Source: Pirellulales bacterium (GTDB taxonomy: Bacteria > Planctomycetota > Planctomycetia > Pirellulales > JAICIG01). Taken from it: a stretch of 32,568 nt of DNA. A program made the position numbers and the translations under genes. This document shows, piece after piece, positions 19,930-32,144 of this stretch; position 1 is the stretch's first letter; each line of letters starts with the position of its first letter. The notes beneath the pieces are model-generated. The model saw nothing but the letters and a program-made list of their open reading frames with translations. It searched no databases and had not been told where the DNA came from. The DNA lies in contig DATLUO010000025.1 in the NCBI GenBank assembly GCA_035533075.1, positions 1-32,568 of the forward strand, written 5' to 3'.

Positions 19930-20940
19930 TTATTCCGCCTCCGACTCCCCCAAAAACTCCGCCAGCCGCTCCATCTCGAAGCGGCTGCCGACGTAAAGCG
20001 GGGTCCGCTGGTGCAAGTCGCCGGGCACCAGGTCCAAAATCCGCCGCCGGCCGTCGGTGGCCAGCCCGTCGCCCTGCTCGGCCAGAAAGGCGATCGGGTT
20101 CGCTTCGTAGAGCAGCCGCAGTTTGCCTTCGCCGTAGCGCTGCGTGGGCGGGTAGAGAAACACGCCGCCTTTGAGCAACGTGCGATGAAAGTCGGCCACC
20201 AGCGAGCCGATATACCGCGACGAGTAGACCGCCCCGGCGTCGCCCGATTGCAGCCAGTGCAAGTAGCGGCGGCAACCTTCGGGAAAGCTGGCCGCGTTCG
20301 CCTCGTTGACGGAATACTGGTTGCCGCGCGGCGGCATCTTCAGGTTGGGGTGGCTGAGCACGAAGGCCCCGATCGACAAGTCGAGCGTGAAGCCGTGGAC
20401 GCCGAAGCCGGTCGAGTACACCAGCATGGTCGACGAGCCATAGAGCACATAGCCGGCGGCCACTTGCCGGTGCCCCGGCTGAAGCACGTCGGAGGCCGGG
20501 TCGGCGGTGTTGCTGACATTGCGGCGGAAGATCGAAAAAATCGTCCCCACGCTCACGTTCACGTCGATGTTGCTGGAGCCGTCGAGTGGGTCGAAGACCA
20601 CGATGTATTCGCCATGCTGCGGGTTTTCGAGCACCACGACCGGCTCTTCGTTCTCTTCGGAAGCGAGCACGCCCACGTTGCCGCGATTGCCCAGGGCGTG
20701 CAGCAGGGCCTGGTTGGCGAACACGTCGAGCCGCTGCTGTTGCTCGCCGTGAACGTTGGTTTCGCCCGCCGCCCCCAGCATTTCGCTCAGCCCGGCCCGA
20801 CGCACTTGGGCGGCCACAATCTTGGCGGCCAGCGTGATGCCGCACAGCAGCCAGGAGAAATCGCCGCTGGCCCGCGGGTGACGCAAACGCTGTTGGTCGA
20901 GAATGAACTGGGCCGCGGTCATCGGACTGCTGGCGATCAT
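19930..20940 (-). CDS. fbp: Fructose-1,6-bisphosphatase, class I
   Basis: Gluconeogenic enzyme hydrolysing fructose-1,6-bisphosphate to fructose-6-phosphate. 336 aa, the normal class I length. The hallmark FDPLDGSSNIDVNVSVGT lies at about residues 116-133, with metal-site residues D117 and D120. Further landmarks are LDVFAN, SEENEEP, VYSTGFGVHGF, SRYIGSLVADFHRTLLKGG and KLRLLYEANPIAFLAEQ. The ATG at 20940 (MIASSPMTAAQF) is the only reasonable start. A terminator-like hairpin about 160 bp upstream, on the same strand, suggests control by attenuation or a separate short RNA. A nuclease-like gene follows 5 bp downstream. Confidence 0.95.
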   Translation of the reverse strand: MIASSPMTAAQFILDQQRLRHPRASGDFSWLLCGITLAAKIVAAQVRRAGLSEMLGAAGETNVHGEQQQRLDVFANQALLHALGNRGNVGVLASEENEEPVVVLENPQHGEYIVVFDPLDGSSNIDVNVSVGTIFSIFRRNVSNTADPASDVLQPGHRQVAAGYVLYGSSTMLVYSTGFGVHGFTLDLSIGAFVLSHPNLKMPPRGNQYSVNEANAASFPEGCRRYLHWLQSGDAGAVYSSRYIGSLVADFHRTLLKGGVFLYPPTQRYGEGKLRLLYEANPIAFLAEQGDGLATDGRRRILDLVPGDLHQRTPLYVGSRFEMERLAEFLGESEAE

Positions 20941-21319
20941 CGGAGCACCTCACAGAGAAGGGAATCCGGACGTGAAGGGGACCAGACGGCATTATGCAGG
21001 TGACTTCGCCGCCTTGGAAGGGCACGCCGCGGCGCCGTCCGCAGGCCCGGTGGTCGAGGAAGCTCCGGCTGCGGGTCGACACGGGTTTGCAGAAGAAAAG
21101 AGGCCATCTCGTCAGATGGCCTCGAGCATCGGCCGCCAGCGGGTTGCGTGCCGGCACATCGGCCGCAGAGTGCAGGTTGTGCCGTCCGGCATCGACCACC
21201 GCGGGTTGCGGTTACGAAGTTAAACAGAAACGGCTGAAAGCTCCAATAGCAGTTTTTCATTTTAACTCGACATCGCAAGCGCCGCTTTGTAGGCTGGGCT
21301 GGCTTGATAGCGTTCCCGC
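20941..21319. other. fbp upstream region without a recognisable gene
   Basis: About 380 bp between fbp and the frameshifted pseudogene. No protein-coding frame is convincing. The only clear element is the hairpin plus T-tract at 21093-21123 on the minus strand. The 200 bp upstream of it on that strand could be an fbp leader or a small RNA. Confidence 0.5.
21093..21123 (-). terminator. Intrinsic-terminator-like hairpin in the fbp leader
   Basis: On the minus strand GAGGCCATCT, loop GACG, AGATGGCCTC (complement of 21100-21123) forms a perfect 10-bp stem with a 4-nt loop. It is followed at once by TTTTCTT. This is a textbook rho-independent terminator. It lies about 160 bp before the fbp start, with no minus-strand gene upstream to end. 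It is therefore either an attenuator of fbp or the terminator of an unannotated short RNA. Confidence 0.65.
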
Positions 21320-22816
21320 CTGCGTGATACGCACCCAGTTTTGGCACAGTGTACTTTGCAACAACTAGCCCTGTTCGCGGCCGTCAGTGGCTGTTTGTTC
21401 TTCCCGGTTACTGGTGGGTGAGCTGGCTGCACCGCCGAGACGGCTTCGGTTGGACGTTGCGGCTTACCCTGGGGTTCGTGTGGTCGTTCGCCCTGTTCAG
21501 CCTGCTGGGCGGGCCGTTTCTGTGGTTCGGCGGCAGTTTTGCCGCGTTTTCCTGGATGCTGGGTGGGTTGTGGGCCTTGTTTGTCCCGCTGAGCTGCTGC
21601 TTGTGGTGGCGCACGCGGCACCTCCTTCCGCCGCCGAGGGCACTTTTTGATTCGCATCTGGCAGGGCAAGGCCGTGATGCTGCACCTCGCGTTTCCGCTG
21701 ATGGCCACGTTGCTGATCCAATTATCGCGGCAGGTCAGCGTGCGCCTCTGGCTGTCGCTCGTGGCGGCCGTGTGCTGCGCTCTTGGCTTCAGCTCGTCGT
21801 CGATCTTTCTCGGCTTGGCCCTGATCTCTTGTCTGTCACTTGCCTTGGTCGCCACGATGGAGAGCGGACGAATCACGTTTTTGGCGTTGGCCACGGCAGC
21901 ATGCCTGCCGCTTGTCGGGGAGGGTGCGGCAATTCTCGCCGACACGCATCTCGGCGTGGCCATCGCCGGCACGGCAATGCCCCCGGGGCGAGCAGACGAC
22001 AGCTTGGCAATTCTGGGTCCGCTATTTGTTGTTCGACTGTCTCCGCGGCGGCTGCGCCGACGTGCTGTGGATCGTTTCGCTGCCGCTCGCGGCCCTGTTG
22101 CTCGGCGAGCCGAGACGTCTCGCCTTTCCGATCTATCATCCCCTCGTGCTGCTCTTCGGGCAAAACCTGATGAAGGTGCCGCCCGACCTGATCGCCATTG
22201 CCCGGCGGTTGGAGGCCGACCCCGACATCCCGAGCGGCACGTGATCTTGTGCGGCGAAGAGGTGACGTCGTTTTTGACCCCCTGGTCGCCGCGTTTTCGC
22301 TACGTCGTCACCCGCACGTTCTATCTGCCGTGTGGCGGCCTCAACCCGGAGCTGCGCGAAGGGAGCGAGAGGTTCTTCTTGAACATGGCGGCACACAACG
22401 GCAGATTTGCCGAGGCGGCTTATCGCGCACGGCTGGTTCTGGGCCATCAGCGGCCCATTCCGGCGGCGGTTTTGGCGGGGAGCGTGAAGTTCCGCCTTCC
22501 GCCAATTGCCGACCTGCACCGATTGGCCGACGTGCCCGAGCTTCTCGACCGCTACCATGTGGAATACATCATCACGTCGCCGCCGCTCTGGCTCGAAGAC
22601 CCGGACCGCGATTCGTTGGCAGCCACGTTGCTCGCCCAGCGCGATGAACTCTTTCGCGAATTGGGATTTGAGGAAGTGCATGCCGGCCACGAGCATTCGC
22701 TATGGCGGCGTTCGGCGTCGGCAGCGACTGGCACGCGGCCCTCGCGAACGCTACCCTACAAGCTTCCCGCGCGCGGCGACGCCCGTCGCCGGTTCTCGCC
22801 AAGTTCTTCACCGTAG
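21320..22816 (+). pseudogene. Frameshifted multi-pass membrane protein gene
   Basis: Coding-like sequence is split over all three plus-strand frames. One frame gives LAQCTLQQLALFAAVSGCLF (to about 21395). The next gives PGYWWVSWLHRRDGFGWTLR and further membrane segments (to about 21640). A third gives IWQGKAVMLHLAFPLMATLL with several helices (to about 22025). Another gives RYLLFDCLRGGCADVLWIVS up to about 22240. The earlier frame then resumes with VILCGEEVTSFLTPWSPRFR and ELLDRYHVEYIITSPPLWLE. At least three, probably four, frame changes are needed to join them. The whole would be a membrane protein with a soluble C-terminal domain, possibly DUF6077-like (uncertain). True decay and assembly errors cannot be told apart here. 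Confidence 0.65.
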
Positions 22817-30509: not shown

Positions 30510-32144
30510 ATGCGGCGATCGAGCGAATCCGTGCTATGCGCCGCATTGGCGCTGGGGACCGCGGTTGTGTATGCGGGCAGCTTGGAAAACGAGTTCGTCA
30601 ATTTCGACGACGACCGCTACGTCTACGAAAACCCGACGGTCCGCGGCGGCCTGTCTCGCGAGGCGGTGGCCTGGGCCTTTTCCACATTTCAGGAGGGAAA
30701 CTGGCATCCCTTGACATGGCTGTCGCTGCAAGCCGACCGCTCGCTTTTCGGACTCACCCCGCGGGCTTACCATACCACCAACCTGGTTCTGCACACGGCG
30801 AATACGTTGCTGCTGTTCTGGATCATTCGCCTGATGGCCGGCGCAGTCGGACGCAGCGTCTGGATCGCCGCGTTTTTCGCCCTGCACCCCTTGCACGTCG
30901 AGTCGGTGGCCTGGGCCTCCGAGCGCAAGGACGTGCTTAGCACGTTCTTTTTGTTTCTTTGCCTGCTGTCTTGGGTGGCTTACGCGCGGCGGCCCGCCGT
31001 AGGAAAGTATTTGTTGTCGCTGGCTCTGTTCGCCCTCAGCCTGATGTCGAAAGCGATGGGCGTCACTTTGCCGCTGGTTTTGCTGTTGCTCGATTTTTGG
31101 CCACTGGACCGCTGGCCGCAGGCCGAGTTGGACCGGCGGCGCCAACTGAGAACAGGCGCCATATTGCTGATCGAGAAGCTCCCCTTCTGTTTGTTCAGCG
31201 GGGCGATCGCGGCGACGGCCGTGTTTACTCAATCCCACGGCAGTACCATGGACTACGGACACTCGATCCCGTTGTCCGCTCGGCTGCTGACGGTGCCCGT
31301 TAACTATGTGACGTACTTATGGCAAACATTCTGGCCGGTTGATCTGGCGGTTCTTTACCCGCACCCCGGCGCCGATTTGCCGCATTGGAAGCCGCTGGGC
31401 GCGGTGGTTGAGCTGGCCGCCGTCACGACGTTGGTGCTGCGGAAACGAAGCACTCGGCCTTACCTGCTATTCGGCTGGCTCTGGTTTTTGATCGCGCTGT
31501 TGCCGGTGATCGGGTTGGTACAGATCGGCGGTCAGGCCACCGCCGATCGCTACATGTATCTGCCGATGGTGGGGTTATTGATCGCGTTCTGCTGGGCCGC
31601 CTACGATCTGGCCGGCGAGTACCATTGGCATCCCGCAGTGTTGGCTGCGGCGCTGGCCGTCTGTCTGTTGAATTGCGCCAAGCTGACCACGTGTCAGATC
31701 GCCGTATGGCACGACGGCGTCACTCTTTGGGGCCATGCTTTGGCGATCACTCCGCCAAGCCTCTGGGCCTGCAATCAGTACGGCCAGGCGCTGGCGGTAC
31801 AGGGCGAAGACGAAGAGGCTGAGCACTGGTTTCGCCAGGCCCTGGCGATCGATCCGACGGCTCTCGCGCCCAACGCCAACTTAGGCAGCAACCTGCTGCA
31901 CCAAGGTCGGCCGGAGGAAGCCGCGCAGTACCTTTTGATCGCCCTTGAGACGCGGCCGGACGATGCGCTGTTGATCGAACGGCTTGGCCTCGTCGAAGAA
32001 ATGCAAGGGCGCCTCGACGCGGCGCTCGGCTACTACGAGCGTGCGGCCCAACTCGTTGCCAAAGCGCCGCGGTTTCGCCAAGACATCGAGCGCGTGCGCG
32101 CGCAGTTGGCCAAGCACGGGCCGGCGAATCACGTACACGAATGA
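30510..32144 (+). CDS. TMTC-like membrane glycosyltransferase with TPR tail, copy 1
   Basis: 544-aa protein with about ten membrane segments and C-terminal TPR repeats (about 415-525). The GT-C-type first outer loop has NFDDDRYVYENP (D33-D35), followed by NWHPLTWLSL and ALHPLHVESVAWASERKDVL. These are hallmarks of bacterial relatives of TMTC/PMT-type protein O-mannosyltransferases, which move a sugar from a lipid carrier to a protein outside the cytoplasm. The ATG at 30510 begins right before the first helix; in-frame sequence upstream lies inside the DUF1559 gene in another frame. Only 14 bp separate it from that gene, so they are probably one transcript. A tandem paralogue follows. Confidence 0.85.
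   Translation: MRRSSESVLCAALALGTAVVYAGSLENEFVNFDDDRYVYENPTVRGGLSREAVAWAFSTFQEGNWHPLTWLSLQADRSLFGLTPRAYHTTNLVLHTANTLLLFWIIRLMAGAVGRSVWIAAFFALHPLHVESVAWASERKDVLSTFFLFLCLLSWVAYARRPAVGKYLLSLALFALSLMSKAMGVTLPLVLLLLDFWPLDRWPQAELDRRRQLRTGAILLIEKLPFCLFSGAIAATAVFTQSHGSTMDYGHSIPLSARLLTVPVNYVTYLWQTFWPVDLAVLYPHPGADLPHWKPLGAVVELAAVTTLVLRKRSTRPYLLFGWLWFLIALLPVIGLVQIGGQATADRYMYLPMVGLLIAFCWAAYDLAGEYHWHPAVLAAALAVCLLNCAKLTTCQIAVWHDGVTLWGHALAITPPSLWACNQYGQALAVQGEDEEAEHWFRQALAIDPTALAPNANLGSNLLHQGRPEEAAQYLLIALETRPDDALLIERLGLVEEMQGRLDAALGYYERAAQLVAKAPRFRQDIERVRAQLAKHGPANHVHE

Follow-up and report, generated by a model that had tools for sequence, protein, structure and literature searches.

A probable terminator hairpin upstream of fbp in a Pirellulales genome, and the non-coding RNAs near comparable stems

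A hairpin followed by a T-rich tail lies on the minus strand upstream of the fructose-1,6-bisphosphatase gene (fbp) of a Pirellulales bacterium, in an intergenic region of about 400 bp that separates fbp from a broken DUF6077 gene. Judged from sequence, there is about an even chance that it is a lineage-specific terminator that closes a short non-coding transcript and shields fbp. We infer that minus-strand transcription would start within this intergenic region and would end at the hairpin, which would act as an intrinsic terminator. The transcript, on a very rough estimate 150 nt long, would be a weak or divergent RNA or one specific to the lineage. The hairpin would thereby keep this transcript out of fbp, and fbp would have a promoter of its own between the hairpin and the gene. 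The hairpin is ordinary in itself, and a regulatory role in fbp expression is not supported.

The hairpin, its setting and its excess over chance

The window, that is, the whole stretch of 32,568 nucleotides that was analysed, corresponds to contig C25 of a genome that totals 8.54 Mb over 296 contigs. In the window, fbp occupies 19930..20940 on the minus strand (PF00316, PF18913), and its nearest relatives among named records are planctomycetes. The terminator-like hairpin is located at 21100..21123 on the same strand, where the sequence from 21123 to 21100 reads GAGGCCATCT-GACG-AGATGGCCTC, then TTTTCTTCTG. Its stem comprises 10 bp with no mismatch and encloses the 4-nt loop GACG, with a predicted energy of -18.1 kcal/mol. 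The tail, read from the sequence as TTTTCTTC (21092..21099, minus strand), has T at six of its first eight bases, the tract being interrupted by a C. A stable stem-loop with a U-rich tract directly 3' is thus present, as expected of an intrinsic terminator. The end of the stem at 21100 and the fbp ATG at 20940 are 159 nt apart, which bears out the initial annotation of a perfect 10-bp stem with a T-tract on the minus strand about 160 bp before this start codon. Its statement that no minus-strand gene precedes the hairpin also holds, the next called gene upstream being on the plus strand at 22026. Between the two lies the remnant of a plus-strand DUF6077 gene (21394..21916). We regard this gene as broken, because only two pieces of the profile are present, positions 16-89 (21394-21615) and positions 249-344 (21635-21916); what should connect them is absent, and the later piece is read in other frames.

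Such hairpins are rare by chance. Twenty dinucleotide-shuffled windows contained on average 0.1 hairpins each with a stem of at least 10 bp and at least five T, vs two in the real window, the second of which, a T-tailed 10-bp stem on the plus strand at 30926-30949, sits inside a gene called at 30546-32144. As a genome control, a sample of 1,618,917 bases with 1314 called genes was picked by contig number, plus a few stretches around earlier matches; genes outside the window were called with a home-made codon-score caller rather than a standard annotator. In this 1.62-Mb sample, 195 stems between genes reach a length of 10 bp or more. At least five T among the eight adjacent bases were found after 16 of them and before three, and at least six T after nine and before none, so that the terminator-like arrangement is commoner than its mirror image. 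The window hairpin belongs to the stem class showing this excess and is therefore, as far as its sequence can indicate, likely to be a genuine intrinsic terminator. Intergenic stems of 9 bp in the same sample display no such excess (two with T after, eight with T before); the outcome therefore depends on the stem threshold. Classical terminators are few in this genome, and the window hairpin marks one probable case.

The main rival of the terminator reading is that the hairpin is a chance palindrome or a relic with no present function, perhaps left behind when the locus was rearranged or decayed, which the broken state of the adjoining DUF6077 gene could suggest. We regard this as less likely. 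It is consistent with the presence of the hairpin as a single, unconserved copy in the genome, with the decay of the adjoining gene, whose family did not turn up in any of the 116 other genomes searched within the order, and with the 3 of 19 long T-flanked intergenic stems that are of the control kind; against it stand the scarcity of such hairpins in shuffled windows and the nine-to-none excess of at least six T after the stem.

The same 24 bp could also be viewed as a double-stranded DNA operator, an inverted repeat binding a regulator of the divergent genes. Its perfect symmetry and its position in a divergent intergenic region would suit such a role, but with up to two mismatches only five other sites exist in the genome, three of them inside called genes, and the two sites between genes centre on TTCGAA and lack the loop sequence of the window hairpin. 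The T-run is moreover one-sided, as in a terminator, and we consider an operator very improbable. Membership in a palindromic repeat family was likewise rejected: allowing up to four mismatches, the 20-mer of the window was found only once in the 1.62-Mb sample, in which three TTCGAA-centred cousins of this 20-mer occur between genes besides the window.

Stems without an upstream gene and the putative short transcript

The 16 T-tailed stems of the genome sample include eight with no same-strand gene upstream, seven that follow a same-strand gene, and one at a contig edge. The window hairpin is one of the eight. The others comprise a stem behind a tRNA-Pro gene (L159, 4063-4099); a stem that ends an RNA, family A, which occurs in 16 of 57 genomes if the own one is counted (L105, 8688-8733); two that end copies of a second RNA, family B, found in 20 of the 57, own included (L179, 1720-1751, and L199, 1348-1378); one that ends a multi-copy element of about 130 nt with matches in 3 of the 57, own included (L178, 5905-5941); and two within GC-rich repeats (L164 and L181). 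As five of these seven close RNAs or elements, a terminator with no gene before it usually marks the end of a non-coding transcript in this genome.

The multi-copy element (L178, 5810-5941, plus strand) combines a promoter-like TTGCCA-18-TATACT with a terminator, exists in 14 near-full copies, often as inverted pairs, and is also present in the one same-family genome; it could be described as a MITE-like element or as a multi-copy small RNA element. A shorter, 9-bp T-tailed stem on the plus strand of L195 (7716-7736) follows an apparent tRNA 3'-end fragment and is possibly an integration site.

A short non-coding transcript ended by the window hairpin would extend over roughly 21094..21244 on the minus strand. 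Its candidate start is a weak promoter-like TTGCGA-16-AAAACT at 21251..21278 on the same strand, which scores 8.5 bits, a value reached in a 0.275 fraction of 200 shuffles, vs 15.3 bits for the tRNA-Pro gene and 14.7 bits for the L178 element. All promoter scores derive from approximate sigma-70 matrices. Apart from the genome itself, no homologue of this stretch was found in 57 relatives or 397 genomes of the class, where only short matches occurred, of 18-54 nt among the matches listed; the homologues expected of a conserved small RNA are lacking in these genomes. A similar search, used as a positive control, recovered the comparison RNAs in 16, 3 and 20 of the 57 genomes, own included. The window yielded no tRNA or tmRNA in a dedicated scan, and 6S RNA (RF00013) had no match in the genome at E 10 and none in the window stretch.

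The suggestion that a short RNA is encoded between about 21124 and 21320 therefore fares unevenly: the hairpin may well be its end, and the lack of homologues, the single copy and the weak promoter candidate speak against it. For the terminator reading as a whole, the excess of T after long stems, the tendency of gene-less stems to close RNAs and a promoter-like site between the hairpin and fbp are favourable, and the upstream promoter candidate that is no better than chance, the absence of a homologue and the C in the T-tail are unfavourable. The short-RNA reading comes close to the preferred explanation but is weak.

The hairpin as a possible leader of fbp

The initial annotation had also proposed that fbp is controlled by conditional termination through a leader with aptamer potential. 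In such an attenuator, transcription would start upstream of 21124, and a ligand, a protein or the ribosome would set termination versus read-through into fbp. The position and orientation of the hairpin suit this arrangement, the leader together with the terminator folds better than shuffled sequences (z -3.15), and a family of exactly such a layout, family A, exists elsewhere in the genome. Nevertheless, the 137 nt before the terminator fold like shuffles (z -0.02), and the folding excess therefore comes from the terminator. Pairing of the stem arms with 21124-21320, by which an antiterminator could exclude the terminator, remains at chance level, 155 and 375 of 500 shuffled leaders being as strong. 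Rfam searches of the window stretch at gathering and relaxed thresholds returned chance matches only.

Conservation upstream of orthologues is lacking as well. Of the 87 fbp loci listed, one is that of the window, and the 86 others were scanned upstream; L082 and L088 were dropped for a match too near the contig end, which made the upstream slice wrong, and L018, L041 and L058 for having less than 150 nt upstream. The window hairpin is missing from all 81 usable loci, several of which look like one genome held in two collections (equal identities). Other T-tailed stems, unlike that of the window, lie upstream of fbp in four of the 81 (L009, L050, L080 and L085). The one other family member searched is 88% complete and gave no fbp hit, and the fbp comparison thus covers relatives from outside the family. 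Within the data at hand, the conservation in relatives to which the initial annotation had looked is not observed.

The best promoter-like site also argues against an attenuator, because it lies downstream of the hairpin. This candidate fbp promoter, TTCCAA-17-CATAAT at 20991..21019 on the minus strand, scores 10.8 bits, a value reached in a 0.005 fraction of 200 shuffles, and from it the fbp leader would measure about 44 nt. The promoter-like scores suggest, then, that the fbp transcript does not include the hairpin. Nor did the covariance models of the two RNA families place the hairpin among their members: family A model R1 does not list it and, with filters off, finds nothing at 21.1 kb (its best score elsewhere in the window being 12.9 bits), and family B model R2 gives only 5.4 bits (E 4.8) at 21089-21191 on the minus strand. 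A leader peptide from the ATG at 21260 was considered and rejected. Its frame has an aromatic-rich start and runs on as far as a stop that overlaps the beginning of fbp, but its codon score of -0.16 per codon, vs 0.24 (sd 0.07) for genes, is that of non-coding sequence, and no stop precedes the terminator.

Taken together, these results do not sustain conditional termination of fbp, and we hold such an attenuator to be improbable. An equally slim chance attaches to the reading that a leader or small RNA confined to this lineage lies before fbp and gates gluconeogenesis through conditional termination; its recent origin would explain why the sampled genomes contain no relatives of it.

RNA families A and B and comparison with known systems

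In a genome with scarce terminators, the gene-less ones mostly flag non-coding RNAs, and pursuing them led to family A, a by-product of greater interest than the window hairpin. Family B is represented by L179 1710-1840 and L199 1337-1466, both on the minus strand (model R2, alignment A2). It consists of a conserved GCGCTTGTGACGC stretch with a terminator and in this genome lies immediately upstream of large tRNA arrays; it has no Rfam match except tRNAs, and two-sided changes occur in only 3 of its 18 predicted pairs. The arrays themselves, on the minus strand at L179 62-1700 and L199 143-1232, are dense series of 15 and 10 consecutive tRNA genes and are perhaps part of a mobile element.

Family A measures about 111 nt, carries a built-in terminator and is found on the minus strand at L105 8685-8796 (contig C50), with a second copy at L234 518-629, also on the minus strand. 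Its alignment A1, drawn from 27 places, served to build model R1; A1 was used because 48 of the 122 rows in alignment A3 match the same hairpins in antisense. Two-sided changes support 14 of the 29 predicted pairs, a number reached by none of 500 shuffles and by no slid control. Model R1 matches 25 of 148 genomes of the class, own included; a single genome contains as many as 18 matches, antisense echoes of the stem among them. The family has no match in Rfam 15.

Among 74 sense copies of family A, the best call downstream is a frame on the same strand in 67 and on the opposite strand in one; five copies have no clear frame, and one lies too near the end. A same-strand gene therefore follows in 67 of the 68 clear cases, at a median distance of 90 nt from the end of the RNA. 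For comparison, 485 gaps of at least 150 nt in the sample of the own genome comprise 155 divergent, 273 tandem and 57 convergent ones. The 66 distinct downstream proteins include 15 MpsC (PF10057), 6 Transgly_assoc, 4 DUF3309, 3 CsbD, 3 response regulators, 2 BON, 2 YflT and 1 CsrA. We take MpsC to be the former DUF2294, and MpsC, CsbD and BON proteins presumably go with stress responses; for YflT, the stress link comes from its Pfam title. On sequence grounds, family A resembles either an attenuator- or riboswitch-like leader that carries a terminator or the gene of a small RNA, placed before genes that are often of the stress type. It is a candidate for a leader through which planctomycetes would control stress genes by termination. 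No report of it was found in the literature on DUF2294 riboswitches, CsbD/GlsB noncoding RNA and planctomycete structured RNAs. The sections of a survey of structured RNA motifs that were consulted (PMC2864571) contain no motif like family A, and its table includes a Rhodopirellula-1 motif with no Rfam number, from which family A is not set apart.

Two known systems offer points of comparison for the window hairpin. With the intrinsic terminators of small RNA and tRNA genes it shares a GC-containing perfect stem, a 4-nt loop, a U-rich tail and the absence of a same-strand coding gene upstream, but the transcript that it would close is putative and homologue-less, with a weak promoter. With the general class of terminator-type riboswitch or attenuator leaders it shares a terminator placed before a co-oriented metabolic gene, whereas it has neither a conserved or structured leader nor antiterminator pairing above chance, and the likely promoter lies downstream of the hairpin.
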